Source: a virus. Taken from it: a stretch of DNA of 31,379 nt. A program made the position numbers and the translations under genes. Below are positions 4,166-29,865 of this stretch, piece by piece (positions within the stretch are counted from its first letter, which is position 1; each line of letters begins with the position of its first letter). The notes beneath the pieces were generated by a model. The model was not told where the DNA came from, searched no databases, and saw nothing but the letters and a program-made list of their open reading frames with translations. The DNA lies in IMG/VR virus record IMGVR_UViG_3300044647_000510, positions 1 through 31,379 of that record, one strand, 5' to 3'.

Positions 4166-4166
4166 A

Positions 4167-4520: not shown

Positions 4521-4522
4521 TT

Positions 4523-5407: not shown

Positions 5408-5663
5408 AAAAGCCGACATGGCGTGCAATAAGCCTCAACGCACGCCGGGGCACCCCACCAAGAGCCACGTGGTAAAAGCGTGTTGGGACGGCAAAGAGAA
5501 GGTAGTTCGCTTTGGGCAACAGGGCGTTAGCGGTAGCCCAAGGAAAGAGGGTGAGTCTGAAGCCGAGCGCAAGCGCCGTGAGTCATTCAAGGCGCGGCAC
5601 GCTAAGAACATTGCCAAGGGTAAAGAGTCTCCAGCATATTGGGCAGATAAGGTGAAGTGGTGA
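5397..5663 (+). CDS. Conserved small phage protein of the CNKPxRTPGHPTKSHVVKA type
   Basis: An 88-residue basic protein starting at GTG 5397 with GAGGA upstream. The conserved features are an N-terminal CNKPQRTPGHPTKSHVVKA, then RFGQQGVSGSP, then SFKARHAKNIAKGKESPAYW and a WADKVKW end. I recognise this as a protein present in many tailed phages, often marine or freshwater, but without a known activity; the charge and invariant His/Arg residues suggest nucleic acid binding. It overlaps the preceding small gene by 11 bases and the next gene by seven, so it is embedded in a coupled run. Confidence 0.8.
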   Translation: MATKKADMACNKPQRTPGHPTKSHVVKACWDGKEKVVRFGQQGVSGSPRKEGESEAERKRRESFKARHAKNIAKGKESPAYWADKVKW

Positions 5664-6724: not shown

Positions 6725-6730
6725 CTTCCT

Positions 6731-7684: not shown

Positions 7685-7685
7685 C

Positions 7686-9125: not shown

Positions 9126-9648
9126 CCCACCCCCGCTACAGATTCCTATAGCCACCCCACAGGGTGGGTTGACTACTGCATGGCTTGCGTGGTTTGATCA
9201 ACTGCGTCGTGTAGTGGCCGATGAAAAGGCGTTTACCGCAGACCCCAATGTTGCGTCTGCGCTGGCTTCGTTGGAGGCAGGGCTACGCACTGTTGCGCAG
9301 TCGTTCGCTCTGCTTCCATCCATTGACTACTTGGCTATCATCAGCAATTTGCGAGCGGACCTAGACATCGGCACGCAGCCGCCGGTTGTTCCTGTACAGA
9401 CTTCTAACTACACAACGCCCCCCACGGGTATTACTCCGTCTGGCTCGCCATTCACCTACATCAACCAGACTGGGTATACAGTAGACGTTATTGTCAGTGG
9501 CGGGGGCGTCAGTCTGTTGGAGTTTTCCCGTGACGGCGCTACATTTTTCAGCACCGGCAGTTTCTATGGGATGTTCACGCTTTCGCCAAACGATCGGTTG
9601 CGCGCTACCTACGTGGCGGCTCCTACCATGACTCTTGTTCAGAGGTAA
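9118..9648 (+). CDS. Small tail-associated protein preceding the tailspike
   Basis: A 176-residue protein from ATG 9118, which overlaps the previous stop; GAGGGTGG lies just upstream, and an in-frame GTG at 9112 would add two residues. The N-terminus (MISPPPLQIPIATPQGGL followed by TTAWLAWFDQL) matches a short pattern common to phage proteins encoded between head-completion and tail-fibre genes. The C-terminal half is Thr/Gly/Ser-rich and probably forms beta structure (about 125-176). No enzymatic motif is visible. It is likely a tail component or tailspike attachment factor, inferred from position. Confidence 0.65.
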   Translation: MISPPPLQIPIATPQGGLTTAWLAWFDQLRRVVADEKAFTADPNVASALASLEAGLRTVAQSFALLPSIDYLAIISNLRADLDIGTQPPVVPVQTSNYTTPPTGITPSGSPFTYINQTGYTVDVIVSGGGVSLLEFSRDGATFFSTGSFYGMFTLSPNDRLRATYVAAPTMTLVQR

Positions 9649-9651
9649 CAA

Positions 9652-11538: not shown

Positions 11539-11547
11539 GGAGGCGAC

Positions 11548-11883
11548 ATGACAGTCACCGTCAAAGTTCTTGTCCCGGCCAAGACCGCCGAGAACACGCA
11601 GACCACGCAGTACGTCGCGCTGGGTGTAACTACTATCATCGACAAGTTCACCGCGACGAACTACAGCGCCTCGGCTGCGACGATCAGCGTGAACTTGGTG
11701 ACCGGCGCGGACACTGCTGGCAACCAGAACCTGATCGTTAAGACTAAGACGATCCAAGCGGGGGAGACGTACACGTTCCCTGAGATCGTCGGTCAAATGC
11801 TTGCGCCTAGCGGGTTCATCTCTACAATCGCCGGCACGGCAAGCGCCATCAACATCCGCGCAAGCGGGCGCGAAGTTTCATAG
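11548..11883 (+). CDS. Small beta-rich tail protein following the tailspike
   Basis: A 111-residue protein with a strong AAGGAGG site before ATG 11548. It is mostly Thr, Ala, Val and Ile with regular alternation, suggesting a beta-sandwich, and ends RASGREVS. No catalytic motif is visible. It directly follows the tailspike and shares its GC-rich codon style, so the pair may have moved together. It could be a tail-associated decoration protein or a tailspike chaperone. I do not recognise a named family. Confidence 0.6.
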   Translation: MTVTVKVLVPAKTAENTQTTQYVALGVTTIIDKFTATNYSASAATISVNLVTGADTAGNQNLIVKTKTIQAGETYTFPEIVGQMLAPSGFISTIAGTASAINIRASGREVS

Positions 11884-11921
11884 TTGCGGACTGTGCCCGC
11901 CACGCGGTACACTGCACAGGT

Positions 11922-12251
11922 ATGGAACTGCACTGCCCTGAGCAACTTGGTTGCGAGATAACGCATCATTTCTCCAGTGGCGTGTATGCCAAGGAGATTT
12001 TCATTCCCGCTGGGCGCATGCTTATTCAGCATCGTCACACACATGACCACATGTCTATTCTTGCAAGTGGGCACGTGCTGGTACAGCTTGGGGAAAGAAA
12101 GCGCGAGTATCACGCCCCAGCGGTAATCAATGTTCCAGCGGGGCTCAGCCACTCTGTCTCGTCAATTAAGGACAGCGTGTGGTACTGCATCCACCACACG
12201 GATGAAACTGATCCCGACAAGGTAGACGCACAACTTATCGTGGAGAACTGA
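11922..12251 (+). CDS. Cupin-fold protein, unknown substrate
   Basis: A 109-residue protein. The cupin pattern is visible: the segment FIPAGRMLIQHRHTHDHMSI (residues 27-46) supplies the first motif with His37, His39, His41 and His43, a beta hairpin follows with a conserved Gly at 50, and the second motif is VPAGLSHSV with His77. These histidines would bind a metal in the barrel. Stand-alone cupins include isomerases, dioxygenases and sugar-binding proteins, so the activity cannot be assigned. It sits alone between the tailspike module and the ejection genes; nothing in its neighbours indicates a substrate. It could act on a sugar in the phage's glycan modification, but that is conjecture. Confidence 0.7.
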   Translation: MELHCPEQLGCEITHHFSSGVYAKEIFIPAGRMLIQHRHTHDHMSILASGHVLVQLGERKREYHAPAVINVPAGLSHSVSSIKDSVWYCIHHTDETDPDKVDAQLIVEN

Positions 12252-12252
12252 A

Positions 12253-13227
12253 ATGCCCATCTTTGCTGCTGTGCTCACGGTTGGCGGTAGTCTCATAGCG
12301 GCAGACATGGCCGCCAGTGGGGCGGAGAATGCTGCCCAAACACAAGCAGATGCTGCCCTACGCGCCGCAGAAATACAGGCCGCTGAGCGAGCCCCCTGGG
12401 TTGAGGCTGGCAAGACCGCCCTACAGCGCCTGCAGACGGGGCTCGCCCCCGGTGGTGAGTTTAGAGCACAGTTCAGCATGGCCGATGCTATGAACGCACC
12501 CGCTATGCGGACTGCTCTTGCTACGGGTAGGGAAGCCATTGAACAATCTGCCGCTAGCAGGGGTGGCCTGCTCACTTCCAACACGCTGGCGGGGTTGACC
12601 GATTACGGGCAGAAGGTTGGTGCTCAGTACCAGAACCAAGCGTTCAACCAGTACCTCGCACAACTTGAGGCTAATTTGAAGCCTATCCAATCTCTCGCAC
12701 AGGTTGGGCAGACTGAGGTGGGCCGGATAGCTGATGTATCCTCAAATGCGGCGCTGGCTGCGGGCGGTGCGCTGGCGGGCAGTCAGGTAGCGCAGGGTAA
12801 CATTTACGGCAGTGCTGTGTCCAACCTGGGCAAGCAACTGGGGCAGATGAACGTGCTACAGGGCCTTTTTGGCGGCGGCGGTGGTGGTGTTGATTACTCA
12901 CTGTCCACGCAGGGCGTCAACCTATCTAGTCCTGCGATGGGAGGCTACACTCCGCCCGCAGGGTATGGGGGCACCTTTGGCAGTTCAGATATACTGTCCG
13001 GCGGTGTACCTACGCTAGGCATGGGTACGTCAGATATGCGGGCCAAGCGGGACGCTCGCCCTGTAGGCAAGACCTTTGAGGGGGACACAATCTACACCTA
13101 CCGCATGGTTAATGATGACGAACCACGCATGGGCGTTATGGCACAGGAGCTCGCACAGCGCAAGCCGCAAGCCGTGCAGCGCGGCCCCTCCGGGTACTTG
13201 ATGGTTGACTACGACATGGTGGGGTGA
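12253..13227 (+). CDS. Ejection-type virion protein with C-terminal S74 chaperone domain
   Basis: A 324-residue protein (GGAG before ATG 12253). The N-terminus has a hydrophobic stretch (FAAVLTVGGSLIAADMA) followed by an Ala/Glu-rich helical region (about 25-170), typical of small podovirus DNA-transfer proteins such as those in P22-like ejection sets. A Gly-rich linker (about 205-255) leads to a C-terminal Peptidase_S74 (endosialidase chaperone-like) domain: SDMRAKRDARPVG (260-272), IYTYRMVNDDEPRMGVMAQE, then a VDYDMV end. The Ser260 and Lys265 pattern (SDxRxK) matches the self-cleaving dyad of this family. The usual role of S74 is to trimerise spikes and then detach. Here it is on a protein in the ejection section, so it may assist assembly of a multimer. 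Confidence 0.75.
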   Translation: MPIFAAVLTVGGSLIAADMAASGAENAAQTQADAALRAAEIQAAERAPWVEAGKTALQRLQTGLAPGGEFRAQFSMADAMNAPAMRTALATGREAIEQSAASRGGLLTSNTLAGLTDYGQKVGAQYQNQAFNQYLAQLEANLKPIQSLAQVGQTEVGRIADVSSNAALAAGGALAGSQVAQGNIYGSAVSNLGKQLGQMNVLQGLFGGGGGGVDYSLSTQGVNLSSPAMGGYTPPAGYGGTFGSSDILSGGVPTLGMGTSDMRAKRDARPVGKTFEGDTIYTYRMVNDDEPRMGVMAQELAQRKPQAVQRGPSGYLMVDYDMVG

Positions 13228-13230
13228 GGT

Positions 13231-15225
13231 ATGGCTGTAGACTTTTCTGTCATGCAGAGTGCGGCTACTGTGCCTATGAAGGCACAGTTCACCCCCACTA
13301 ACCTCACCGGCTCTATTGAAGAGGCGTACTCCCTCGCTGGCACGATGGCTGACACGCAGACCAAGATGCGTACTCAGCAGTCTGCGCAGAACGACCGTGC
13401 TGCTGTACAGAACTATATCCGCTCTGGTGGTGATCTGTTCACCCCTCCGGGCATTGAGCGTGCGTTGACGCAGCTTAGGGGCCGCGTGAGCCCCGAGTAC
13501 TTCACCCGTCTCGGCGAGCAGGCGCAGAAGCTAAAGACTGCTGATATTGATCTGCAAAAGAAGATCTCAGGCTTGCGTGAAGATGAATTGTCCGCCTACA
13601 GCGCAGGCATTGAGAGCGCAATGCCATTCCTAGACGCGTTGCAGCGCCAGTACGAGGCAGACCTTGAGGCCGGTGGGGCTGAGAGTGCACTTGCCAAGTT
13701 TAACGATAATCGCGCCAAGCTGGTCACTACTATGCAGGGGCGCATGGCGGGGCCCAACACCCCCATGTTCAATGAACAGGTGGTACAGAGCCTACAGGTA
13801 GTTACGCCTGAGGTGTTGCCCGGAATGGTTAGCGCCAGCAAGTACCAGACGACGAAGATAAAGAATGCGCTTGAGGCTGCCCGCGCCAAGGCGGCTTCTA
13901 CGGGTAAGACTGAGAATCTTGTTGCCCCTGACGGTAAGGTGGTTGCTAACGTGCCGGGGGTTGGACTGGTTGACACCGCCACGGGTAATCAGTATACCGG
14001 CAACCCCGCAGAGCTGAAGCCCATGGTCACTGGGCGGGGTGCAGCAGCCCCCACCACGGGCCGAGATTGGGAACAGTATACAGATCCACAAGGCAACATT
14101 TACGAAAGCAGCCGCACTCTGCGGCAGACCGTCCAGGTCAACAAGGACGGCACACGTACTGAGGTACCGTCTTTGCCAGCGGATGCTTTCCGTGTCGGTA
14201 GCGTGGCCGCTGCCCGCGCTCTGGTTAAGCCGGGTGATGTACCGGACCTCACACCTGACGAGAACGCCAAGCTGGCTGAGTTTTCTCGAGTCTATGGTCG
14301 ACAGATTCCAGTACCTAGCTTCGGCACTGGCGCAGCCGCACGGCAGGACCGTGTGCTGTTCCTACGCAACTTTGTGCAGGACATGGCCTCCCGTGGGGAA
14401 ACACCCACCTCCGCAGGCGTGCAAGCGTCCATGGCTCGGGCTGGACAGGAGGCACTGAAGCGCATCACCACGCAGGACGTTATTCTTTCCGCAGGTGAGA
14501 AAGAGCTGCTCGGCATTCTTGACAAGATGGAGGCCGAACTTAAGAAGATTGGTGGACCTGACTCTCCGCTTGTCCGTAGGTACTGGAACCGCGCCGCTAC
14601 TGAGATTGCTGGTGACCCCACCTTCTCTGGCATGAATGCGCTGTACACCGCGTTCATTGATGAAGCGGCACGCGTCACCAGCGGTGCCACGGGCGCTGCG
14701 GGCACTCCGGTAGCGTACAAGCAGCTTGCCGAGCGCATGCTGGACCCCAACACCAACCTCAGCCAGTTGATGGCGTTCAAGCAACCGTTTAAGGACATGA
14801 TTGAGGCCCGCCAGCGTGGTGTGGAAGGGGCCAAGCAGCAACTGATTACCAGCATCTCACCGCCCCCTAGGCGCAGTGAGGGCACCACGGTGCCTCCGGC
14901 CACGCAAGCGGGTAGGGACCAAGACCGGACCACCATTCTCCGTCAAGAGTACGATGCTGCGCTCCAGCGCATGAACACAGCCACTGACCCCACCGCACGG
15001 AGCCGTGCAATGGCTGATGCGCGCTCCACGCGTGAGGAGTTGCGGCGCTTGGGTGTGGACGTACCCCCACCCGGTGAACCAACAGCAGCGGCGGCTCCCG
15101 CAGCGGACCAGACTCGCGCAATCAGAGACGCGCTCCGCAAGGCCAACCGCACGTACGAGCCTGATAAATTTGACTACCGCATTGGCCCCGATGGTATGGT
15201 GCAACAGCGCAGAAAGGTACAGTGA
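13231..15225 (+). CDS. Large internal virion (DNA ejection) protein
   Basis: A 664-residue protein starting at ATG 13231 with a GGGTGAGG region upstream. It is largely hydrophilic and helical with long Ala/Gln/Arg-rich tracts. No catalytic motif was recognised. It shows an initial segment around VMQSAATVPMKAQFTPTN and a C-terminal tail (RTYEPDKFDYRIGPDGMVQQ, ending RRKVQ). It is one of two long helical proteins following the S74 protein, the arrangement of P22-type ejection proteins gp7, gp20 and gp16, which leave the head and help form a conduit through the envelope. Sequence similarity to those is not visible by eye, so the role is inferred from order, size and composition. Its stop overlaps the next start (TGATG). 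Confidence 0.7.
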   Translation: MAVDFSVMQSAATVPMKAQFTPTNLTGSIEEAYSLAGTMADTQTKMRTQQSAQNDRAAVQNYIRSGGDLFTPPGIERALTQLRGRVSPEYFTRLGEQAQKLKTADIDLQKKISGLREDELSAYSAGIESAMPFLDALQRQYEADLEAGGAESALAKFNDNRAKLVTTMQGRMAGPNTPMFNEQVVQSLQVVTPEVLPGMVSASKYQTTKIKNALEAARAKAASTGKTENLVAPDGKVVANVPGVGLVDTATGNQYTGNPAELKPMVTGRGAAAPTTGRDWEQYTDPQGNIYESSRTLRQTVQVNKDGTRTEVPSLPADAFRVGSVAAARALVKPGDVPDLTPDENAKLAEFSRVYGRQIPVPSFGTGAAARQDRVLFLRNFVQDMASRGETPTSAGVQASMARAGQEALKRITTQDVILSAGEKELLGILDKMEAELKKIGGPDSPLVRRYWNRAATEIAGDPTFSGMNALYTAFIDEAARVTSGATGAAGTPVAYKQLAERMLDPNTNLSQLMAFKQPFKDMIEARQRGVEGAKQQLITSISPPPRRSEGTTVPPATQAGRDQDRTTILRQEYDAALQRMNTATDPTARSRAMADARSTREELRRLGVDVPPPGEPTAAAAPAADQTRAIRDALRKANRTYEPDKFDYRIGPDGMVQQRRKVQ

Positions 15226-16973
15226 TGGCTACCGAAGCTACCTGGGAGACCGTACCGGACGCTCGCGTCGAGGGCTGGGAGCCCGTGCGCCCCCGCGTGC
15301 GCCAGCCAAGCATCTACGCCCCACGGGAAGAATGGGCACGCTACCGTGCTGCGCAAGCCAGTGGGGACGCTGCACCGGCCCCCACGGGGCAGCTACGGTC
15401 GGAGATTGCACCCATGCCTGCGCCCATGGACGTTGTCAAGGGTACGGCAAAGGCTCTGGCCGGTGCTCTGCTGGAAACACCGGCCACCATGGTCACTGGT
15501 GCGGTGGCAACTCCGGTAGCGGGGCTGGCTGGCCTTGGCCGCACCGCGTACGACATTGCTACCGGCAAACCCACCGAGCAAGCTCTGGCCCGTGGGGCTG
15601 AGACTGTGGAGAGCGTGCAGCAAGCCATGACGTATCAGCCCCGTACGCAAACGGGGCAAGCATTCACGGCCATGGCGTCAGCTCCTTTCCAAGCTGCGGC
15701 TAATGTTGCTGGTAAGGTTGGCGGCGCGGTTGGAGAAGTGGTGGGTGGCGAGCAGGGACGCATAGCTGGTGAGGCTATCGGTAAGGTCACGCCCGAGATT
15801 GGATTGACGTTAGCCGGTGGGCGGCAAGCTCTCCGTGCTCAGCCTGGACGCCCCACGGGCCCTGCCCAGTTGACGCAAGAGCAAGACGCTATTGCCGCTG
15901 CTCAGCGGTCAGGCTTCCGTGCTCTGCCCACGGAGTCGCGTGGTGGGGCGGTGAACGTAGCAGTTGAGTCCGTAGCCAAGCAGGCTCCACTGGTCAAGCG
16001 GTTGGTGCAGTACAACGAGGAGCGGGCCAGCCAACTCGTGCGGCAGGACCTCGGCCTGTCCCCCACCGGACGGCTGGACGAGCAAGCAATCACCGGCCTG
16101 CGTAACCAAGCCGGTGCGGTGTACGATCAGCTGCGTGCTCTCCCAGATGTGATCAACGTGCGCGCCACTGATCCTGCTTGGATTACCAAGGTGCAGGACT
16201 TGGATGCACGCTTCCGCAGCATCAAAGCTGCCATGCCAGACATGTACCGCAGCGGTGGGCTGGAGCGGTTGCGTGGCTCCATGGGCAGGATAAATACCTT
16301 GACTCCTGAGCAGGTTGTTGACATCACCAAAAACCTGCGGGACACCGCTACCCGCACACTCAAGCGCACTGACGCACCCAGCGAGAGCATTGACGCCGCC
16401 TACGCCTTTAAGGAGGCGGCTAACATGATGGAAGATCTGCTGGAGACTCACCTTAGCCAGACTAATAGGCAAGGGGCGTTGGATAGGTTCCGCCGTGCGC
16501 GGGAACTCTACGCTAAGACTTACGTGGCTGAGGACGTTACCAACTTGACCACTGGCAAGGTTGACCCGCAGGCGCTGCGCCGTGCCATGGAGCGGGGCGA
16601 GCCACTCACCGGCAACATGCGCCGCGTGGCTGACGCCGCTGCCGCCATGCCCAGCGTAATGCGGAGGACTGAAGGACTCACCACCCCGGAGGGTATGGTC
16701 CTTAGCGACTGGGCCATGGGCGCGGGTATTCCAGCAGCAATCTTCAGTGGTCAACCCGGCATTGCGGCGGGGCTTGCTGCCGGTGCCGCTGCCCGCCCAG
16801 CGGTGCGCAGCATGGCCGCTGGTGAGCGCTACCAGCGCCTAATGGCGCAGCCTAGGGGTACAGTACCCCGCGCCCCTGTTGCGCCCGCTGTACCGGGCAT
16901 GGTCACCATGGGAGCAGCAGCCCAGCCCAGCCGTGAGCGTGCTCCATTCCTCATGGGTGAGGAAACTGAATGA
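15225..16973 (+). CDS. Large internal virion protein with membrane-active segments
   Basis: A 582-residue protein from ATG 15225, which overlaps the preceding stop as TGATG and has AAAGG seven bases upstream; an in-frame GTG sits three bases earlier. It contains several Ala/Gly-rich hydrophobic stretches (about 70-110, ALAGALLETPATMVTGAVAT; about 165-200; and about 500-530), separated by long charged helical regions. This pattern fits an ejection protein that inserts in or crosses the host membrane, comparable in position to P22 gp16. No enzymatic motif was recognised. The next gene overlaps by four bases (ATGA). Confidence 0.7.
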   Translation: MATEATWETVPDARVEGWEPVRPRVRQPSIYAPREEWARYRAAQASGDAAPAPTGQLRSEIAPMPAPMDVVKGTAKALAGALLETPATMVTGAVATPVAGLAGLGRTAYDIATGKPTEQALARGAETVESVQQAMTYQPRTQTGQAFTAMASAPFQAAANVAGKVGGAVGEVVGGEQGRIAGEAIGKVTPEIGLTLAGGRQALRAQPGRPTGPAQLTQEQDAIAAAQRSGFRALPTESRGGAVNVAVESVAKQAPLVKRLVQYNEERASQLVRQDLGLSPTGRLDEQAITGLRNQAGAVYDQLRALPDVINVRATDPAWITKVQDLDARFRSIKAAMPDMYRSGGLERLRGSMGRINTLTPEQVVDITKNLRDTATRTLKRTDAPSESIDAAYAFKEAANMMEDLLETHLSQTNRQGALDRFRRARELYAKTYVAEDVTNLTTGKVDPQALRRAMERGEPLTGNMRRVADAAAAMPSVMRRTEGLTTPEGMVLSDWAMGAGIPAAIFSGQPGIAAGLAAGAAARPAVRSMAAGERYQRLMAQPRGTVPRAPVAPAVPGMVTMGAAAQPSRERAPFLMGEETE

Positions 16974-18139
16974 AGCTGCTGCTGCTCGACCAAGACGCCA
17001 AGGCTTTGAGCCTTGTGCTGCGTGCTGCACAGGCAGGTCATAACGTGAAGTGGTACGCCCCAGATACTGAGGTGGGCAATGGCTTCCGTGGCTTTGAGCG
17101 AGTTGACAACTGGGTGGCCCACACCGGCTGGGCAGACCTAATCTTCAACTGTGGGTGTGATAAGTTTGAGCCCAAGCTGCGTCAACTAGTGCAGCGGGGC
17201 TACCCCGTGTGGAACACTCCGTGCTCCATGAAGTTTGAGGATTACGCCACCCTCACACCCGCTACGGAGCAGTTCACAACCGTTGATGCGCTGATCAAGC
17301 ACCTGTACGCCAAGCCTGCCCGCTACGTGCTGAAGGGCGAGGAGGTGGACAGCTACGAGTCTTACTCTGCTGCTGATATGCTGGCGCATGTGCGCAGCAT
17401 GCCCACACCGGAAGGCAATTTGCTTTTGCAAGACTACGTGGAAGGGCTCCAGGCCACGGTGCTGCGCCACATGGGCCGCGATGGATGGCTGGGCCCCGTG
17501 CAGGAAAGCCTCACCCACACCGGCATCAGCCGCTGGGTGGAGGACTCCCCGCTGTTTGACAACACATTGGGCACGTTGACTGACTTGTTGATGCAGCGCG
17601 GGCTCCGTGGTACGGCCATGGCTAAGTGCTGTATCAGCGCGGATGGAGAGGTCTTCGTCTTCAAGGTCAAGTGTCGCTGGGCTGTACAGAGCACCGCCCA
17701 GCCCACCAATGACCCCGTGCAGTGGGCGCTGGACGCCTTGTCTGCCAAGGACACTGCCACTTACCGCACTGAGGGCATGGCGTACTACGTTAAAATCGAG
17801 GCTGAGGAGCCGGGCGCACCCGTGTACGGCATCACCCGTGGGGTGGCGGTGCACGCTCAGCCAATGATGGTGCAACTGCGCCGCATGCCGGACATGAATG
17901 CTGACGGCACCGCCATTGTAGAGCGTGACTTGTGGGTCAGTGCGGGTGAGTATCCACTTGCTGTGGATGGGTATGGCACCTCCGCCAAGCAGGCGATGCG
18001 CCGTGCCATGTCCACACTGGACAAGATCTATTCTGCTGAAGCTGAACCCGACATTGAAGACGAATACTTCTCTGGCCTGCGGGACAAGCTCAGTGCTGCG
18101 CAAAGCGCGGGATTTTTGACTGCATTGAAGTACGATTGA
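16970..18139 (+). CDS. ATP-grasp-like protein resembling PurD (GARS)
   Basis: A 389-residue protein (ATG 16970, GAGG upstream). It is organised like phosphoribosylamine-glycine ligase: an N-terminal nucleotide-binding-like part (MKLLLLDQDAKALSLVLRAA) with a short segment GYPVWNTPCSMKFEDY where PurD has its sub-domain boundary; a central ATP-grasp-like region with YVLKGEEVDSYESYSAADM and LLLQDYVEGLQATVLRHM, like the EEYLxGxE strand of the family; and a C-terminal domain with ERDLWVSAGEYPLAVDGYG and a helical ending. The glycine-rich DGLAAGKG loop of PurD is not evident, so it may be a divergent ATP-grasp ligase or inactive. Its location between ejection genes is unusual. The call rests on pattern memory, so it is moderate. 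Confidence 0.55.
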   Translation: MKLLLLDQDAKALSLVLRAAQAGHNVKWYAPDTEVGNGFRGFERVDNWVAHTGWADLIFNCGCDKFEPKLRQLVQRGYPVWNTPCSMKFEDYATLTPATEQFTTVDALIKHLYAKPARYVLKGEEVDSYESYSAADMLAHVRSMPTPEGNLLLQDYVEGLQATVLRHMGRDGWLGPVQESLTHTGISRWVEDSPLFDNTLGTLTDLLMQRGLRGTAMAKCCISADGEVFVFKVKCRWAVQSTAQPTNDPVQWALDALSAKDTATYRTEGMAYYVKIEAEEPGAPVYGITRGVAVHAQPMMVQLRRMPDMNADGTAIVERDLWVSAGEYPLAVDGYGTSAKQAMRRAMSTLDKIYSAEAEPDIEDEYFSGLRDKLSAAQSAGFLTALKYD

Positions 18140-23122: not shown

Positions 23123-23638
23123 CTACGTTTTTGCAGGTGGGGTAGGGCTAGGGTAGCGGGGGCGGTACCACGCGGCCCAGGAGCCGTCTTTTGGCACACG
23201 GATACACTTACCAACGCAGGGCACCATGTCACTTTCTTTATCTCCAAACATTAGGCTCTCGGCCAAGTCAATGTCAAAATCACGGGCTGCGCGCTCAAAC
23301 ATGGCGGTTCCAGGCTTGCGGCAAGTGCAGCCAGCGTCTGGCGTGTGCGGGCAGTAGTACGCAGCCGTGATGTACACGCCGTGCTGCCCCAGTAAGTCCA
23401 ACATGCGGCGGTGCACCGCAGTGTACTGCGCCTTGGTTATCCGCCATCGGCCAATGCCGCTCTGATTGGTGACTACGATTAGCAGGTATCCACAATCAAT
23501 TAGATTGCGTAGAGCAGGTACCACCCCCGGCAGTAGTTCTACTTGCGTGGGGTCATTCAAGTAGGGAACGTCCCGTATTAGGGTTCCGTCCCTGTCAAGA
23601 AATGCTGCTCGATTCTCCGCCACGGATGCGACGCTCAA
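23123..23638 (-). CDS. gmhB: D,D-heptose 1,7-bisphosphate 7-phosphatase (GmhB-like)
   Basis: A 171-residue HAD phosphatase of histidinol-phosphatase/GmhB type. Motifs: AAFLDRDGTLI (11-21, nucleophile Asp15 and acid Asp17), VVTNQSGIGRW (55-65), the zinc loop CPHTPDAGCTC (96-106; Cys96, His98, Cys104, Cys106) and RKPG, then FGDKESDM (131-138). All catalytic and zinc ligands appear intact. The enzyme removes the C7 phosphate from heptose 1,7-bisphosphate, here presumably the beta anomer, after the HldA kinase step. The start is uncertain: TTG 23638 is used, which overlaps the upstream gene by 44 bases; GTG 23623 (16 residues before the catalytic block ends) is another choice, and neither has a strong ribosome site. 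Confidence 0.88.
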   Translation of the reverse strand: MSVASVAENRAAFLDRDGTLIRDVPYLNDPTQVELLPGVVPALRNLIDCGYLLIVVTNQSGIGRWRITKAQYTAVHRRMLDLLGQHGVYITAAYYCPHTPDAGCTCRKPGTAMFERAARDFDIDLAESLMFGDKESDMVPCVGKCIRVPKDGSWAAWYRPRYPSPTPPAKT

Positions 23639-24026
23639 GTATGGTGGTGCTAATGTCTGGCACGCGGGGCAGTACAGTCACTGCTACGTTCCTGCTGAGC
23701 AGCCACTGCCCCTCGGCGCTGTGAGCAACGTCGCACTCACTGTCCTTTACATAGATGTCAGGTATTGTGCCCAGCGTGCTCCAGTACTCAACGGGGTTAG
23801 GGCCGTTGAATATGTGTACGTTCGCCACGCAGCGGAGAGCTTCCAGCACGCGGCGGCGGTAGGCCTCGGGTACTATGGGGCGGTGGGTACCCTTCAAAGC
23901 GCGGACGCTTGCGTCACTGTTCATGAATACGGTGAGCGTGCCCAGTTTGGCCGCACGTTCAAGGAACATGACATGCCCCGCATGTAGTAGGTCAAAGCAT
24001 CCATTAGTCCAAACACGGGCATTCAC
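23595..24026 (-). CDS. hldC: Heptose-1-phosphate adenylyltransferase (HldC/RfaE2-like)
   Basis: A 143-residue cytidylyltransferase-like (HxGH) protein. Motifs: TNGCFDLLHAGHVMFLERA (residues 7-25, HAGH at 15-18), MNSDASVRALKG (35-46) followed by RPI, and PDISTTILERRI near the end (123-134, ISTTIL type). The family normally has KGGDY around residue 94; here it reads VKDSECD, a local divergence. These proteins form ADP-D-glycero-beta-D-manno-heptose from ATP and heptose 1-phosphate. The start is GTG 24026, overlapping the gmhA stop as GTGA with GAGG seven bases upstream. The closest host proteins are the C-terminal domain of bifunctional HldE; here it is separate from the kinase. Function is inferred from family and neighbours. 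Confidence 0.85.
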   Translation of the reverse strand: MNARVWTNGCFDLLHAGHVMFLERAAKLGTLTVFMNSDASVRALKGTHRPIVPEAYRRRVLEALRCVANVHIFNGPNPVEYWSTLGTIPDIYVKDSECDVAHSAEGQWLLSRNVAVTVLPRVPDISTTILERRIRGGESSSIS

Positions 24027-24577
24027 TGCAAGGCCTCCTCAATCATCTGGCAAAGAATATGTCCCACTAGAATATGACACTCCTGAATACGTGCGGTGTC
24101 TGTGCTGTCAACGCACAAGGCATGGTCGGCAACCCGCCCCAACGCTCCCTCGTTGCGCCCAGTGAATGCTAGCACAGTCACGCTCAGCGCCCCGGCAATC
24201 TCTGCTGCGTTGACCACATTGGCGCTGTTGCCACTGGTGCTGAAGCACAGCAGCACATCACCCTCACAGGCCAGCGCGTCCACTTGGCGGGAGAACACTG
24301 ACTCAAATCCGTAGTCATTGCCCACAGCGGTGAGTATGGATGTGTCTGTAGTCAGCGCCACGGCGGCGTAGCCGCCCCGCTCCCGCTTAAAGCGGCCCAC
24401 CAATTCTGCCGCAATGTGTTGACAATCCGCCGCGCTGCCACCGTTGCCACACAGGTAGATGGTGCCACCCTGAGCAATACAATCGATCAGCACCTGTGCC
24501 ATCGCGTTGATGGTGTTTTCCTGCTCCAGCAGAGCACTTACAGCTGAGTTGTGCTGTTCAACAATCTTGGCAAGCAT
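24023..24577 (-). CDS. gmhA: Sedoheptulose 7-phosphate isomerase
   Basis: A 184-residue SIS-domain protein. Signature CGNGGSAADCQHIAAELVGR (residues 43-62), then TDTSILTAVGNDYGFE, STSGNSANVVNAA (113-125) and the end motif CHILVGHILCQMIE (167-180) with His168 and His173 as in the catalytic region of the family. The enzyme converts sedoheptulose 7-phosphate to D-glycero-D-manno-heptose 7-phosphate, the first step of heptose synthesis. The ATG at 24577 has AGGAG-type purines upstream (GAGGAGATTGAAG) and lies inside the end of the kinase gene (40-base overlap), so translation is probably coupled. Confidence 0.92.
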   Translation of the reverse strand: MLAKIVEQHNSAVSALLEQENTINAMAQVLIDCIAQGGTIYLCGNGGSAADCQHIAAELVGRFKRERGGYAAVALTTDTSILTAVGNDYGFESVFSRQVDALACEGDVLLCFSTSGNSANVVNAAEIAGALSVTVLAFTGRNEGALGRVADHALCVDSTDTARIQECHILVGHILCQMIEEALQ

Positions 24578-25449
24578 TCTTCAATCTCCTCTCGAGTAAT
24601 CACAGCCGTGCCTACGTGGCGCGTTGCAAGGGCACCGGCCACGCTACCACGCAAACAGGCGTCGTACAGCGGTAGTTCCTCTGCTAAACCCACCGCCAGA
24701 GCAGCCAAATAGCTATCGCCGGCACCAGTGGGGTCAACACACTGCACGGGCAGGGGCGGAACATGGCGTGTATCGGTCCACGAGACGCAGCCAATGATTT
24801 CTGACCCAGCGCCGCTCGCTGTTTTTATCAAATTGGCGAAGTTATGCTCCGCTGGTATTCTGTACTGTGACATACCCACCGCCTCCACCTCAGCCGCATT
24901 GGCCTTGACGTAGGTGGCATTTTCATACCTACCCCAGTTGGAGCCCTTGGGGTCTACCAATGTGATGCGCCCGTAGGCACACGCGTCAAGCATTGCGTCT
25001 ACATGCCGCAGAGCGCCCTTACCATAGTCACTAAATACGACCACACCGTACTCGTCAAACAGATCGTTGAGCGCGTCGTTCATGCGCTCAGCCTCTGGCT
25101 CGCTGAGTATGTGGTCCTCGTCAATGCGGGCACGCACCACACTGTTGACAAACAGGCGCGTCTTGGTGGTGGTGCGCTCCACCGGGCAGGCTTGGTACAG
25201 CAGGTCGCTGCTAGTGAGAATATCTAGCAGCGATGTTCCAGCCACATCCTGCCCCACGGCGGTGAGCAGCTTAACGTCTCCACCCATAGCCTTGATGTTC
25301 AAGGCTACGTTGGCAGCGCCTCCGGCGTAGCACTGTTCGTGGTCTACGTCGTAAATGGGGATGGGTGCCTCTGGGCTTATGCGCGTGACCTCGCAGTCAA
25401 TGCGCACGTCCAGCATGCTGTCACCCACCACTAGAATCTTTTTTGACAT
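24538..25449 (-). CDS. hldA: Heptose-7-phosphate kinase (HldA/RfaE1-like, PfkB family)
   Basis: A 303-residue PfkB/ribokinase-fold protein. Motifs: VVGDSMLD (7-14) followed by RISPEAPIP (23-31, as in HldE kinases), YAGGAANVALNIKAMGG (41-57), DYGKGAL (141-147), VDPKGSNWGRY (165-175), KANAAEVEA (182-190) and the anion-hole motif DPTGAGDSYLAAL (239-251, Asp245 as base). It phosphorylates D-glycero-beta-D-manno-heptose 7-phosphate at C1. The usual LVTRGExGM strand is replaced by a divergent segment (about 210-225), so confirmation is desirable. AGGAGG lies six bases before ATG 25449. This is the N-terminal half of host HldE as a separate protein. Confidence 0.88.
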   Translation of the reverse strand: MSKKILVVGDSMLDVRIDCEVTRISPEAPIPIYDVDHEQCYAGGAANVALNIKAMGGDVKLLTAVGQDVAGTSLLDILTSSDLLYQACPVERTTTKTRLFVNSVVRARIDEDHILSEPEAERMNDALNDLFDEYGVVVFSDYGKGALRHVDAMLDACAYGRITLVDPKGSNWGRYENATYVKANAAEVEAVGMSQYRIPAEHNFANLIKTASGAGSEIIGCVSWTDTRHVPPLPVQCVDPTGAGDSYLAALAVGLAEELPLYDACLRGSVAGALATRHVGTAVITREEIEECLPRLLNSTTQL

Positions 25450-25639
25450 TCTCGGCCTCCTGTGTGAGTTGCACTACCTCGCGGCGCAGGCGAGCAATGC
25501 GGCGAATGAGCATTTCTTCCATTGCGGAATAGTACTCTCGCTGCTCTACGGCTGTCAGCCGGTTACGCTCGGCCTCCTCCAACGCGGCGGCTGCGATACG
25601 CAACGGGCTTGGCTTGCGGAACGGGTTGAAATCTATCAT
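25421..25639 (-). CDS. Small helical phage protein (72 aa), unknown function
   Basis: A 72-residue protein starting at ATG 25639, seven bases after GGAG. It begins MIDFNPFRKPSPLRIAAAAL and continues as a single charged amphipathic helix (EEAERNRLTAVEQREYYSAM and further), likely coiled coil. I recall similar NPFRKPSPL openings in small proteins of other phages. It overlaps the kinase gene by 29 bases and the preceding small gene by 77, which is high but in line with the compact packing here. No activity can be suggested. Confidence 0.6.
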   Translation of the reverse strand: MIDFNPFRKPSPLRIAAAALEEAERNRLTAVEQREYYSAMEEMLIRRIARLRREVVQLTQEAENVKKDSSGG

Positions 25640-25811
25640 CTATCATCTCCACTGCAACGTGATTTTTGAGAGCTGGCAATAGCCCCTTGGCGGCTGCTAG
25701 GGCATCGCGGCGGGAGGCACCCTGCACCGTGCCCATGCGTTCTGCTACAACGTGCACGCTCCCCTCAGGGGGGATGTGCCGCCGCATGTAGTACACCTGA
25801 TATGTCTTCAT
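25563..25811 (-). CDS. Small phage protein (82 aa), unknown function
   Basis: An 82-residue protein from ATG 25811. The first 55 residues have regular beta/alpha alternation (YQVYYMRRHIPPEGSVHVVA, then RRDALAAAKGLLPALKN) that looks like a folded small domain; the last 25 residues are Arg/Pro-rich and lie in the overlap with the next gene. The ribosome binding site is weak. It follows the DUF3310 gene after an 88-base gap (25812-25899) in which no feature is clear. The long overlap means either this C-terminus or the neighbouring start could be misassigned. Confidence 0.5.
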   Translation of the reverse strand: MKTYQVYYMRRHIPPEGSVHVVAERMGTVQGASRRDALAAAKGLLPALKNHVAVEMIDDRFQPVPQAKPVAYRSRRVGGGRA

Positions 25812-25899
25812 CTAACACCCGGTTGGTTGTTGGGGTGCCCCCATTGTGGCAGGGGCTGGTATCTAAGCACAGTAGGGTAAACCCCTAGCCCGTACGACG

Positions 25900-26367
25900 C
25901 TAGTCGCCTTGGTTAACGTAGCCCTGCCCAGTAGGGCACGCGCCGTGGGCTTGGTGGGCGTCCTCTAGCGTCGCAGCCCGTACCATAGTGCCGCAGTGCC
26001 TGCAACGGTAGTGCTGGGTGAGGTCGCCGTAGTAGCCCTCGCACTGCCAGTCGTCATTGCTAAGGATCTCAGCAGCCTGCTGGCGGATGGGTACGGGCAC
26101 CGTGCCCAGTTCCTTGCTCTCTACAGGCTGGGGCGCGTCGTACTGCTCGGCAACTTCGATGTACTTTTGCAGAAAGTGCGCAGCCTTCTTCAAGTCCTCA
26201 AGTCGCCTTTCATACGTGGCGTGCTTGTGCTTCCAGCGCATAAGGTACTTGGTGACTTGATACTGGAAGGGGTCCCACTGGTACATGACGGCCAAGTCCC
26301 AATGCTGGAGCTTCTGCCCATGCGTGCGGTAATGGTCTCCGCCCACTTGCTTCTCATTTGCGCTCAC
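25900..26367 (-). CDS. DUF3310 family protein with C-terminal zinc-ribbon-like region
   Basis: A 155-residue protein starting at GTG 26367 (GTGA overlap with the preceding gene's stop; GGAG nine bases upstream). The N-terminal half matches DUF3310: QVGGDHYRTHGQKLQHWDL (7-25), then YQVTKYLMRWKHK and RRLEDLKKAAHFLQKYIE. DUF3310 includes the region related to T7 gp1.7, a nucleotide kinase, and is common in phage nucleotide-metabolism operons. The C-terminal part (about 115-145) adds a small metal-binding-like motif, YRCRHCGTMV followed by a His/Cys pair (HQAHGAC). The role is probably in nucleotide or DNA metabolism; the substrate is unknown. Its position after a thymidylate synthase homologue fits. 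Confidence 0.8.
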   Translation of the reverse strand: MSANEKQVGGDHYRTHGQKLQHWDLAVMYQWDPFQYQVTKYLMRWKHKHATYERRLEDLKKAAHFLQKYIEVAEQYDAPQPVESKELGTVPVPIRQQAAEILSNDDWQCEGYYGDLTQHYRCRHCGTMVRAATLEDAHQAHGACPTGQGYVNQGD

Positions 26368-27338
26368 TTGATCTCTCTCCTTTCACACCACTGTTGAAAA
26401 CCCAACTTCCAATCACACTCTGGCACGTTGCTGATGTCGTAACTTTCGCCAGTCTTACGGGCCAGGTACGCATCACGCAAGGGCGCAGCCACCCTATCCA
26501 TGAAAACCGTGTCCATGGCGCGGAACCCGTTAACAATCCGCTCACAGTCATCGAGGAAGTGCTGCCACGTTTCCTTGCCAGAGATGAGTGGGAGCGCCAC
26601 TGCACTGCCTGCCGCGTAGTAGTCAAAGCCTCCCACGGGCGGATAGCGCAGGAAGTCCTTAACCTTGTCGTTGTCTGTGTAGGCGTGCCAGTTGTTGCTG
26701 AACTGCCGGTACACTCCCACGGGCACCCCCACGGCGTGAGCAATTACCTCCTGCAACACGCTCATGTGCACGGCGTTGGCTCCGTAGCAGCCCCACAAAA
26801 TGTCGTTGCTGCGGCAGGTCACCGTCATGTTCAACTTGCCGCCACGGCAGTCAAAGTAGATAGCGGTGTTACAGGGTCTGTCCCGCCACGCGCCTTCCAG
26901 GTCCGCGGTGGGGTCCCACATCTGCAACACGGCTTGTCTGCTCTGCGGGTTGGTGCGCAGCATGTTGATGATGGCGGGCAGTTGGTCGTACATGCCGTCA
27001 TTAAACCAGTTGCGCCAGCGTGCTCCATACGCCCCGTGGATGTAGCCGTCAGGCTCCGCGTAGGTGCTGATGTTGCTGCTGAATTGGCTGAGCCACTCTA
27101 CGTCACTAAGCCCAGCCAGCATCCAAATAGATTCCATCAAGTGGAATACGTGGTTGGCGTCGCGCCGGGGGCTGAACAACACCCGCTCCATGGGGCGCAG
27201 GTAGGTAGTCACCACCGGGGTGGGGGCAACCATAACGGGTCCGTTACGGCTGGGCTCCTCCACGCCAGCAACGCTCAGGTAATGCCACGCGGAGTCAAAC
27301 GCATCGTTCACATTGTTTTCAGTTATGGAGTGGATCAT
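26364..27338 (-). CDS. Thymidylate synthase family; possible dUMP hydroxymethylase
   Basis: A 324-residue protein (GAGGA before ATG 27338). Key residues align with E. coli ThyA: PCN at 155-157 gives catalytic Cys156 (ThyA Cys146); RSND 176-179 corresponds to Arg166/Ser167/Asp169; Asn188 to Asn177, the residue that selects dUMP over dCMP; and His218/Tyr220 to His207/Tyr209. ThyA has His after the catalytic Cys, but this protein has Asn157. Family members either make dTMP (thymidylate synthase) or 5-hydroxymethyl-dUMP (dUMP hydroxymethylase), and the residues visible here do not separate these. The adjacent HMUDK-like and TAGT-like genes favour hydroxymethyl-dUMP production for DNA hypermodification. 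The gene is coupled to both neighbours by short overlaps. Confidence 0.85.
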   Translation of the reverse strand: MIHSITENNVNDAFDSAWHYLSVAGVEEPSRNGPVMVAPTPVVTTYLRPMERVLFSPRRDANHVFHLMESIWMLAGLSDVEWLSQFSSNISTYAEPDGYIHGAYGARWRNWFNDGMYDQLPAIINMLRTNPQSRQAVLQMWDPTADLEGAWRDRPCNTAIYFDCRGGKLNMTVTCRSNDILWGCYGANAVHMSVLQEVIAHAVGVPVGVYRQFSNNWHAYTDNDKVKDFLRYPPVGGFDYYAAGSAVALPLISGKETWQHFLDDCERIVNGFRAMDTVFMDRVAAPLRDAYLARKTGESYDISNVPECDWKLGFQQWCERREIK

Positions 27339-28143
27339 ATCTGTTCCTCACATGTCCGTTCATGTACTTGACCTTGCACCACTTGCTGAACTCGCACAAG
27401 CAGTTTTGGAAGTCTTGGTCACTAATGCGTGGCACCTCTGGCCGCACAAGTGGGTCAACCTCATGCCTGCAAGCACGCAGAGCGTGCCTGTATTCTCTAG
27501 GAGTTATTGATTGAATATTGTTCAGCATTGCCTCCTTATTGAAGTACCAGCTCAACCCCCGCAGGCTACCCGGCCCAGGCGCTGACCATGTCCACCAATC
27601 AGGTGCGTCGTGCAGGGGGTGGCCGTGAGTATTCTTCATGTCAGCAACCACTTGCCCTGCTAGAAAACTGCCCAGCCCATCTACAACTTCCAAGCTAGCG
27701 GCAGCGTAGGACAGCCCACTGTAGTTAAGTTCTGCAGGGGTGCCGCCCACAACATGATCAAATACATAGTCCAGCTTATCCATGCTGCGCCCACACGTAC
27801 TGATGGTGTACGCACTGGTGAACACCTTGTGTCCCTGGGCAACGCGCTTTTTCAGCACATCTTTCATCTGCCAGGGGAAGTCACAGTATAGCAACTGCTC
27901 AAGGCTCTCAGGCAGGTTGATCATGCGGCCCACCACAAACCGCCAAGCGGGGTCGGTACCACGGTTCCAATACTTGCGGATCCAACGGGTTACCTTATCG
28001 TCTTCCCGGTGTACGTTGCAGAACCGCACAGTGTTGAATACGGGGTCCTTGCTCCACGGTGGAGTGTCCTTTGCCTCCTTGGCGAGCTTGATGCGGTGGC
28101 GCTCGTTTATCCAGTAGGCAAGTTCATGCGTTAGATGCAGCAT
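27319..28143 (-). CDS. Base-hypermodification protein, HMUDK helical domain type
   Basis: A 274-residue protein resembling the 5-hmdU DNA kinase helical domain/aGPT-pyrophosphorylase family (PF18723 type). Recognisable segments: YWINERHRIKL (10-20), VRFCNVHREDDKVTRWIRKY (39-58), FTSAYTISTCGRSMDKLDYV (108-127), GLGSFLAGQVVADMKNT (156-172) and GPGSLRGLSWYF (190-201), then EFSKWCK. There is no P-loop (GxxxxGKS/T) anywhere in it, so this protein alone is unlikely to be the ATP-dependent kinase. Family members act in pathways that further modify 5-hydroxymethyluracil in phage DNA. Its location between a thymidylate synthase homologue and a TAGT-like glycosyltransferase fits such a pathway. The exact reaction is unknown. 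Confidence 0.75.
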   Translation of the reverse strand: MLHLTHELAYWINERHRIKLAKEAKDTPPWSKDPVFNTVRFCNVHREDDKVTRWIRKYWNRGTDPAWRFVVGRMINLPESLEQLLYCDFPWQMKDVLKKRVAQGHKVFTSAYTISTCGRSMDKLDYVFDHVVGGTPAELNYSGLSYAAASLEVVDGLGSFLAGQVVADMKNTHGHPLHDAPDWWTWSAPGPGSLRGLSWYFNKEAMLNNIQSITPREYRHALRACRHEVDPLVRPEVPRISDQDFQNCLCEFSKWCKVKYMNGHVRNRYDPLHN

Positions 28144-28912
28144 GCTGTCTCGCTTTCTTCCAGTACACCACTACATCGGTACGGGTGCCACCACCCCAAG
28201 CGGTCTTGGTTTCTTTCTCCACTACACTGACGTAGGGCTTGTGCAGCGCAGCAAGCAGATGCGCTGCCTCGGCCTGGAGCGCCATGGTGCGGTAGCTAGA
28301 GCAGCCACCGGGGGCGTCACTACCCTCGGCTTGGTTGTTGCACCAGTTGTTGAGCACCAGCGTGTCCTTGCCAGATTTAAGAATCTGCAAGCTAACGTGG
28401 AAGTCTTCCATCACGGGCATGGGGGCAAACGTGATGTTGTGGGTGCGGAGGTAGTGCCTGTCATACCCCAGCACGCGCATGATGCGCGTGTTGAGCATCA
28501 CTTGTTCCGTATTACGGTTGCCACCCTCCCGTGGAGCGATGCCCACGTGGGGGTAGAGGTCTAGCCTGCCCTCAATCTGATCTAGCATGCGGCGCAGTTC
28601 AAACGGTGCCAGGGCGCGGAACTTGGTGGGTTCGTCCACGCGGCGGGCAAAGAAGTGCAGGTCATCATCAAGCATGACAACAAAGCGCTCCTTCCAAATA
28701 TCGCTGTGTATCAAGTAGTCCCGTGTGGGGGCTACGGTTTGGATGTGCGGCGGCAGCACGTGCACGGGCCCGTCGTACCACGCGTACTGAGTGTGCTCAC
28801 GGTGCTGCACAACTAGAACAGGCAGCACGCCCTCGGCTCTAAGAGCACGGAGGGTATGCTGCCTGTCTTGTTGTGGACGCCCGTATGTTGGAATAAGGAC
28901 GTCCATGGCCAT
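28124..28912 (-). CDS. TAGT-like GT-A glycosyltransferase, candidate DNA glycosyltransferase
   Basis: A 262-residue GT-A-like protein. Motifs: VLIPTYGRPQQDRQHTLRAL (residues 5-24), VLPPHIQTVAPTRDYLI (52-68), VVMLDDDLHFFARR (78-91) with the metal-binding DDD at 82-84, HVGIAPREGGNR (122-133), VMEDFHVSLQILKSGKDTL (167-185), GGCSSYRT (202-209) and a conserved end VEKETKTAWGGGTRTDVVV (231-249) before WKKA. I recognise this order from the TET-associated glycosyltransferase (TAGT) family, proposed to glycosylate hydroxymethylated bases in phage DNA. The donor is unknown. It starts at ATG 28912, sharing TGATG with the preceding stop; ATG 28906 is a second option. Assignment to TAGT is from memory of the family. 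Confidence 0.75.
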   Translation of the reverse strand: MAMDVLIPTYGRPQQDRQHTLRALRAEGVLPVLVVQHREHTQYAWYDGPVHVLPPHIQTVAPTRDYLIHSDIWKERFVVMLDDDLHFFARRVDEPTKFRALAPFELRRMLDQIEGRLDLYPHVGIAPREGGNRNTEQVMLNTRIMRVLGYDRHYLRTHNITFAPMPVMEDFHVSLQILKSGKDTLVLNNWCNNQAEGSDAPGGCSSYRTMALQAEAAHLLAALHKPYVSVVEKETKTAWGGGTRTDVVVYWKKARQHAASNA

Positions 28913-29376
28913 CAGTCGATGGTCTCTTCAACCGCTACGTCGTCAACGGAGGCAGGGGCTGCCTCAGCGGTGGCGGCCTTGGCCTTCTTACCACGGGGGG
29001 CCTTGGGCTCCTTAGGAGCCTTTTCTGCCTTGGGGGCACGCTCCTTCTTCAACACCAGCTTGGGGTCGTACCCCTCAATGGCGATAAAGCCGTGCGCGGC
29101 ATCGTACACGAGGTTGGGGGTGGCGGCTTGGCCTACGGCGTCAAGGAACTGCTGCACCGTCATCCCGTCCACGTACTGCGCAAATGCGTCGTGCGCCTTG
29201 CTGCCCGGACGCTTGGGGTTGCCCTCAACCTTGAGGCTGATAATGGCGTCCAGCGCCACGCCCTTGGGGCCACGAGCGCCCACGGGAGCACCCGGTGCGT
29301 TCTTGGGTGCAGCCGGTGCGTCTGCCGCTGCGGAGGTAGAAGTCTCAACGGACTCCACTTGCTTCTTCTTAGCCAT
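28912..29376 (-). CDS. Possible separate C-terminal product from internal start (154 aa)
   Basis: An in-frame ATG at 29376 (Met164 of the longer frame) is preceded by AGAAGG at 29387-29392, ten bases upstream, a better ribosome site than many true starts here. The product starts MAKKKQVESVETSTS and has an Ala/Pro/Lys-rich linker, a compact region of about 70 residues (GVALDAIISLKVEGNPKRPG onward) and a basic Ala/Lys-rich end. I recall similar stand-alone phage proteins with NPKRPGS and GMTVxxF motifs. Whether both forms are made cannot be seen; the alternative is a genuine fusion with an internal methionine by chance. Confidence 0.5.
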   Translation of the reverse strand: MAKKKQVESVETSTSAAADAPAAPKNAPGAPVGARGPKGVALDAIISLKVEGNPKRPGSKAHDAFAQYVDGMTVQQFLDAVGQAATPNLVYDAAHGFIAIEGYDPKLVLKKERAPKAEKAPKEPKAPRGKKAKAATAEAAPASVDDVAVEETID

Positions 29377-29865
29377 GTTGGCTTTTCCTTCTAAAACGAA
29401 CGTTGGCACGGGGCGGCGTGTCCAACTACTTTGCTCTACCTTCCGCCCCAGGTAGTATGCTCGGTAAGCAGCAACGCTGTCACCGGCAATTTTGAACTCG
29501 TCTGGCATAGCCTGCGGTGGCTCAGTCCACAGGAGGGGCATTCCAGCTCCCCTGCCTGCTGCCGCAGCACGATAGATGATTTCTAAGCTGCGATGCTCCT
29601 TACCGCTGTAGCGGTAAGCGTACTCAGCCGCCAAAGCGCGGGCGTGCGTCACCAGCCACGTGAAGTTGTACAGCCCATCTCCCGCCCACAGCACGCTGGG
29701 GTGCCGTGGATGCGTGGGCTTGTACATATTCTCTTGCCACAGGCCGTGGCGATGACACACTGTACTGAGAATTTGAGCGCTTTCTAGAATCATCTTCACG
29801 ACATGCTTGTCGTGCATAATCTTAGCAGCAGCTTCTGGATCTCTGTCGAGATAAAAGACGTTCAT
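28912..29865 (-). CDS. Two-part phage protein: conserved MNxFYLDxDP domain plus C-terminal module
   Basis: A 317-residue frame. Residues 1-158 match a widespread phage protein of unknown activity: MNVFYLDRDPEAAAK, DKHVVKMILESAQILST (19-35), YKPTHPRHPSVLW (48-60), EPPQAMPDEFK (115-125), AYRAYYLGRK and a W-x-R-R-P-P ending. In other phages this is usually a stand-alone protein ending near that point. From Met164 the sequence changes to an Ala/Lys/Pro-rich linker, then a small domain (VEGNPKRPGSKAHDAFAQYV, then DGMTVQQFLDAVG, about 224-256), and a Lys/Ala-rich tail. Met164 has its own AGAAGG site, so both a fusion and a shorter C-terminal protein may be made. Function unknown; neighbours suggest DNA metabolism. 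Confidence 0.7.
   Translation of the reverse strand: MNVFYLDRDPEAAAKIMHDKHVVKMILESAQILSTVCHRHGLWQENMYKPTHPRHPSVLWAGDGLYNFTWLVTHARALAAEYAYRYSGKEHRSLEIIYRAAAAGRGAGMPLLWTEPPQAMPDEFKIAGDSVAAYRAYYLGRKVEQSSWTRRPVPTFVLEGKANMAKKKQVESVETSTSAAADAPAAPKNAPGAPVGARGPKGVALDAIISLKVEGNPKRPGSKAHDAFAQYVDGMTVQQFLDAVGQAATPNLVYDAAHGFIAIEGYDPKLVLKKERAPKAEKAPKEPKAPRGKKAKAATAEAAPASVDDVAVEETID

Follow-up and report, generated by a model that had tools for sequence, protein, structure and literature searches.

A candidate viral operon for the heptosylation of 5-hydroxymethyluracil in DNA

Introduction

Base J of kinetoplastids is a glucosylated hydroxymethyluracil (hmU), the hmU being made in DNA by oxygenases. Among phages, the T-even group carries glucose on hydroxymethylcytosine (hmC), and in T2 and T6 a TAGT glycosyltransferase adds a second glucose; solitary TAGT homologs, considered potentially novel transferases, occur in 288 of 753 phage genomes (PMC13216743). 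RB69-type (Mosigvirus) phages place arabinose on 5-hydroxy-dC and possess sugar genes clustered with a DNA arabinosyltransferase (PMC13390438), a precedent for a donor cassette that serves DNA modification. The DNA of Pseudomonas phage M6 carries 5-(2-aminoethyl)dU (PMC6449724), and a thymidylate synthase (TS), aGPT-PPlase1 and a putative glucosyltransferase have been reported from HTVC023P-type pelagiphages (PMC9599517). The operon analyzed here lies at 23123-28912 of a virus fragment of 31,379 bases (the whole stretch is called the window) and encodes a TAGT, the helical protein HMUDK_hel, a TS homolog and four heptose-nucleotide enzymes; through it the phage probably transfers heptose to 5-hydroxymethyluracil in its own DNA, with both donor and acceptor predicted from the genes.

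In the proposed pathway the TS homolog, judging from homology, would convert dUMP to 5-hydroxymethyl-dUMP, to be incorporated in DNA as hmU; GmhA, HldA, GmhB and HldC, judging from family, motifs and completeness, would convert host sedoheptulose-7-phosphate to ADP-D-glycero-beta-D-manno-heptose; and TAGT would then move the heptose from ADP-heptose onto the hydroxymethyl group in DNA. HMUDK_hel would be a shared subunit that recognizes hmU in DNA, and the transferase slot next to it is filled in relatives by TAGT, by an enzyme resembling the T4 beta-glucosyltransferase (BGT), or by the 5-hydroxymethyldeoxyuridine (5-hmdU) kinase that belongs to the amino-acid pathway. The phage would probably gain shelter against restriction and further defences directed at DNA. 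The first-pass annotation of the window had proposed heptosylated hmU from the co-location of seven enzymes in one minus-strand run; the seven open reading frames (ORFs) were verified with place, order and strand as first described, and family scans agree on each gene. The proposal itself has been strengthened well beyond co-location by a conserved module, eight cassette lineages and an exchange of transferases, while donor and acceptor are still deduced.

The putative hydroxymethyluracil module

TAGT, HMUDK_hel and a TS resembling dUMP hydroxymethylase form a constant module of three genes. When IMG/VR was scanned with an alignment of TAGTs, 80 loci were recovered; among the 52 distinct loci in which TAGT lies well inside the sequence, HMUDK_hel is present in 52 and TS in 51, and neither the M6-type kinase nor the amino acid:DNA transferase ADDT was found in any (0/52 for each). 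TAGT is therefore inferred to glycosylate whatever TS and HMUDK_hel handle, and its substrate is most likely hmU. The TAGT of the window scores 71.7 bits on PF20691 against a curated cut-off of 27.5, and the DDD motif (GT-A, DxD-type metal motif) is invariant in the TAGT alignment.

HMUDK_hel scores 104 bits on PF18723 (cut-off 25) and is homologous to gp055 of M6, a protein separate from the M6 kinase gp054; the earlier description of an HMUDK-type protein is thus right for the helical domain, which is present, and not for a P-loop kinase, which is lacking. The AF2 model of HMUDK_hel is confident (pLDDT 95); a Foldseek search with this model against the PDB gave no significant match, a result that speaks neither for nor against a DNA-glycosylase-like fold.

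The TS homolog is 46% identical to the M6-type enzyme over 98% of its length. Across TS homologs the catalytic Cys and an Asn are each conserved in 69/69; HMMER pairs this Asn with the Asn by which thymidylate synthase reads dUMP, and with Asp in a CMP hydroxymethylase, though a one-residue loop shift makes the pairing somewhat doubtful. The kinship with the M6 enzyme and the conserved Asn point to hmU as the base, with some doubt due to the loop shift.

An M6-type amino-acid pathway was considered for this locus and rejected, as neither the P-loop 5-hmdU kinase (PF18748) nor ADDT (PF18724) is present in the window or in its relatives, contigs G001-G005; both were detected in M6 as a positive control. 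A further relative from the phage group of the window, contig G032, encodes kinase, HMUDK_hel, TS and ADDT; the slot beside HMUDK_hel can therefore take either kind of enzyme. This contig shares with the window a core gene resembling the GT9 glycosyltransferases, and at L264:7315-11597 the M6-type set replaces TAGT. In relatives HMUDK_hel and TS are separated by a small gene with weak similarity to MazG/PRA-PH nucleotide pyrophosphohydrolases (L100:14275-14658, minus strand; E=0.03); it is absent from the window, and G002-G004 have a similar gap between these two genes.

The predicted heptose cassette

All four enzymes of the ADP-D,D-heptose pathway are present with their catalytic motifs, in fixed order, just downstream of TS in eight viral lineages. 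The HldA-like protein retains DPTGAGD, and the GmhB-like protein LDRDGTL and the zinc loop CxH..CxCRKP, in eight of eight lineages; the GmhA-like protein displays CGNGGS..HxxAE and RIQECH and is 50-59% identical to bacterial GmhA, and the HldC-like protein contains NGCFDLLHAGH and ISTT. No hldD epimerase was found in any of ten contigs, fragments included; the D,D form of ADP-heptose is therefore probably the one used, and by their sequence families GmhA, HldA, GmhB and HldC should yield ADP-D-glycero-beta-D-manno-heptose. The earlier claim of a complete heptose-nucleotide pathway is accordingly narrowed: the four enzymes carry their motifs and find heptose models as their best NCBIfam matches, but all score below the equivalog cut-offs, and the pathway stops at ADP-D,D-heptose. 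As those cut-offs are not reached, the assignment of a heptose substrate is drawn in part from completeness, motifs and co-occurrence. It could be argued from the same scores that the four enzymes make another ADP- or CDP-activated sugar and that the sugar on the DNA is not heptose, the more so as the hldC-like relatives that occur in other TAGT contigs are solitary and resemble other cytidylyltransferases; with all four steps kept together in fixed order, motifs intact, in eight lineages, and a heptose model as the best match of each enzyme, this is regarded as highly improbable.

Five of the eight lineages carry TAGT (window/G001, G002, G003/G004, G005 and L140), and three carry a BGT-like protein in the TAGT slot (G034, G050 and L349); the refuting condition named earlier, relatives whose heptose genes never lie near TAGT, thereby turns out in favor of the proposal for a subset. 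The lineages were reached through four different query genes. None of L140 (query TAGT), G034 (query GT9-like gene), G050 and L349 (both from the slot protein) owes its discovery to a heptose query. Among the loci collected up to that stage, every gmhA record stands with the hmU module (16/16, from five lineages), and in the same locus set gmhA accompanies none of the 64 hldA-like loci outside the module.

The co-occurrence of TAGT and cassette that the first-pass annotation had expected in relatives holds for a subset; most TAGT phages lack the cassette. The TAGT family as a whole is therefore not heptose-specific, and the cassette-free phages presumably use a host donor. Two further candidates were discarded: the hldC-like genes of other TAGT phages are not additional heptose cassettes, since they occur without hldA, gmhA and gmhB and resemble other cytidylyltransferases, and sugar cassettes are not general to TAGT phages, whose neighbor clusters consist of replication genes and small proteins with no donor genes. 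Support in the GmhA tree is too low to count cassette acquisitions. Contig G030 has a lone gmhB-like HAD phosphatase after its TAGT module (L258:16224-16703), perhaps a decayed or different sugar cassette.

Exchange of the predicted DNA glycosyltransferase

In G034, G050 and L349 the position of TAGT is occupied by an unrelated protein of ~302 residues. The family of this slot protein has almost no Pfam signal, most members being without a match; when an alignment of 25 members was compared with seven T4-type BGTs by hhalign, a probability of 84% was obtained (E=7.7e-6, 202 columns), whereas 60 column-shuffled versions reached E 0.045 at best, and comparison with the families of GT9-like proteins and of TAGT gave ~0.03. 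The aligned stretches take in YGGSFRxGxR and RVWE of BGT, which hold donor-binding residues. On this profile evidence the slot protein is judged a remote homolog of T4 BGT. An AF2 prediction from a two-row alignment was of low confidence (pLDDT 40), and no useful hit came from searching PDB sequences with the families of TAGT, the GT9-like protein, HMUDK_hel and the BGT-like protein. The BGT-like family has 31 loci, of which nearly all have HMUDK_hel and/or TS as well.

In the TAGT tree, those TAGTs that accompany heptose genes occupy two distinct regions, both with strong support. The concatenated cassette tree and the HMUDK_hel/TS tree agree in outline, and both pair L140, which has TAGT, with L349, which has the BGT-like protein, at moderate support; since the trees agree while the transferase changes, the cassette is inherited with the hmU module and not with one transferase. 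That the transferase is exchanged while the cassette is retained, each replacement being by sequence from a DNA-glycosyltransferase family, is considered the strongest argument for heptose on DNA. A broader proposal, that heptose is placed on hmU from the phage's own ADP-heptose, that HMUDK_hel is the common hmU-DNA adaptor whose partner slot takes TAGT, a BGT-like enzyme or 5-hmdU kinase, and that this modular chemistry would be changed by exchange of one gene, is held to be evenly balanced between holding and failing.

Two enzymes might also act in succession. TAGT could add a hexose to hmU and another enzyme add heptose as a second sugar, or the first sugar could be the work of a transferase encoded beyond the sequenced part of the genome; the TAGT of T6 places a second sugar on glucosyl-hmC (PMC13216743), and one locus, L369, combines a BGT-like protein and TAGT with a PfkB kinase. 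The larger relatives G003-G005, however, contain no TAGT- or BGT-like DNA transferase that could be found beyond their single TAGT, and TAGT stands with TS and HMUDK_hel in the 52 interior loci; a two-sugar arrangement is thus thought very unlikely, and direct transfer of heptose to hmU is preferred.

The L369 locus (4100-13263 of a 95.6-kb contig) comprises HMUDK_hel, an hldA-like PfkB kinase, the BGT-like protein and TAGT; no gmhA was found there. In Escherichia phage vB_EcoM_IME392 (L263:3157-8789) the BGT-like protein, HMUDK_hel and a TS-like gene are accompanied by a PIG-L-type sugar deacetylase and a small P-loop kinase, a set that may place a de-N-acetylated amino sugar on DNA.

Organization of the locus

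The coordinates of the operon and of the related genes discussed are collected in Table 1. The order in which the first-pass annotation had placed TS and hldA is right; three small ORFs intervene between them. Gene order is kept in divergent relatives, and dN/dS of the seven operon genes is 0.07-0.19 against G002 and 0.06-0.29 against G004, indicating purifying selection; for both reasons the operon is not a chance arrangement. G001 is a contig of 38.2 kb that is near-identical to the window.

Table 1. Genes of the operon and related genes in the window, with family matches and remarks.
Feature	Position	Strand	Evidence and remarks
GT9-like (heptosyltransferase-type) protein, structural block	5657-6724	+	no Pfam match of its own; remote profile similarity
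gmhB-like D,D-heptose-1,7-bisphosphate 7-phosphatase	23123-23638	-	HAD; NF006506 E=1e-40
hldC-like D,D-heptose-1-phosphate adenylyltransferase	23595-24026	-	CTP_transf_like 2e-12; TIGR02199 E=1.6e-30
gmhA-like sedoheptulose-7-phosphate isomerase	24023-24577	-	SIS_2 5e-28; NF010546 E=3.3e-59
hldA-like D,D-heptose-7-phosphate kinase	24538-25449	-	PfkB 2e-28; TIGR02198 E=1.7e-57
Small ORF	25421-25639	-	homologs 84-100% identical at equivalent position, G001-G004
Small ORF	25563-25811	-	homologs 48-99% identical at equivalent position, G001-G005
Small DUF3310-like protein between TS and heptose cassette	25900-26367	-	weak PF11753; phrog_5839 1e-18; kept in relatives
TS homolog	26364-27338	-	PF00303 3e-24; phrog_5131 2e-97; proposed dUMP hydroxymethylase
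HMUDK_hel protein, helical partner without P-loop	27319-28143	-	PF18723 E=1.2e-29; proposed hydroxymethyluracil-DNA recognition subunit
TAGT glycosyltransferase, GT-A type	28124-28912	-	PF20691 E=1.1e-19; phrog_842 9e-42; DDD motif; proposed DNA heptosyltransferase
Protein with Pyr_excise-like N-terminus	28912-29865	-	PF03013 E=1.9e-5; phrog_624 1e-49; adjoins TAGT in G001-G005

The stop codon of the Pyr_excise-like gene overlaps the TAGT start; in many relatives, too, the gene stands upstream of TAGT, and it is a possible further member of the TAGT module. Outside the operon, a 389-aa protein at 16970-18139 (plus strand) has no family match and is found in the structural block of all relatives at 57-100%.

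Possible alternative use of the heptose donor

Several points weigh against heptose transfer to hmU. The contigs compared are unclassified fragments or unverified assemblies throughout; the donor specificity of TAGT is not readable from sequence, and the TAGTs that have been characterized transfer glucose, to a base that is glucosylated beforehand (PMC13216743). Most TAGT phages are without the cassette (0 of 23 contigs tested carry it), the scores of the cassette enzymes lie below the equivalog cut-offs as given above, and the heptose donor might be consumed by the product of a GT9-like gene that this phage also has.

This last gene, which the first-pass annotation did not mention, bears on the alternative raised there of lipopolysaccharide (LPS) remodeling. 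The GT9-like protein, or host enzymes of the WaaC/WaaF type, would attach heptose from ADP-heptose to LPS or a virion protein, TAGT would modify DNA separately with a donor from the host, for instance UDP-glucose, and the operon would reflect shared early timing only. The GT9-like gene is indeed present in every cassette-bearing contig long enough for testing, its family is remotely related to heptosyltransferases (hhalign 78% against WaaU), and most TAGT phages function without the cassette. PF01075 (GT9) gave no match on the protein of the window; a fused relative reaches E=8e-4 at 19.2 bits, below the cut-off of 22. The gene is, however, widespread (77 loci) and common in relatives without the cassette; a search with it led to 21 contigs, of which only 2 have gmhA, and these two belong to the six that have HMUDK_hel (one-sided Fisher ~0.07, hand-calculated, with many fragments among the contigs). 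The DNA module, never the GT9-like gene, is the constant neighbor of the cassette, and in L140, G034, G050 and L349 the cassette stays with the module despite the differing transferase. An envelope or virion role is on balance considered unlikely, a judgment kept from being firmer by the small numbers and the many fragmentary contigs; heptose transfer to hmU is still the favored reading.

In the structural block an S-adenosylmethionine (SAM) methyltransferase gene (4523-5044, plus strand) lies near the GT9-like gene, with conservation at 46-100% in 77 loci; the two proteins are fused into one in G034 and G050 (compare L256:16049-17602).

Comparison with known systems

Sugar-modified phage DNA is already known; no report of heptose on DNA, phage DNA included, was found in the open-access literature searched, the coverage of which is incomplete. 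If the proposal is true, DNA can bear a seven-carbon sugar, and one hmU module serves three different modification chemistries. The heptose pathway is known from lipopolysaccharide, and ADP-heptose is sensed by innate immunity. The locus would also provide a gene signature for finding such modifications, candidate DNA glycosyltransferases with a new donor, and a way to test why phages exchange transferases, perhaps escaping defence enzymes specific to one sugar or linkage.

The M6/ViI type of thymidine hypermodification shares the first steps, as the dUMP hydroxymethylase (46%) and HMUDK_hel (~30%) of M6 are homologous to those of the window; M6 differs in its separate P-loop 5-hmdU kinase and amino acid:DNA transferase, which were not found here. 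Brevibacterium phage LuckyBarnes has the same TS/HMUDK_hel/TAGT set, with two TAGTs, and the HTVC023P-type pelagiphages likewise combine TS, aGPT-PPlase1/HMUDK_hel and a TAGT-type transferase; neither has the heptose cassette. Base J resembles the proposed product in that a sugar is carried on hmU in DNA, but its hmU is made by oxygenases, its sugar is glucose and its bearers are eukaryotic. The T-even phages pair a TS-type hydroxymethylase with DNA glycosyltransferases of the same two families, TAGT here and BGT-like in relatives of the window; they differ in base (hmC, here probably hmU), in the UDP-glucose donor and in having no sugar cassette, whereas an HMUDK_hel partner is present here. 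The RB69-type phages hold their own donor genes (isomerase, kinase and nucleotidyltransferase) beside a DNA glycosyltransferase (PMC13390438); theirs place arabinose on 5-hydroxycytosine through different enzymes, with no heptose genes reported. The window holds predicted hydroxymethylase, DNA glycosyltransferase and donor genes together, as in sugar-modified phage DNA of the T4/RB69 kind.

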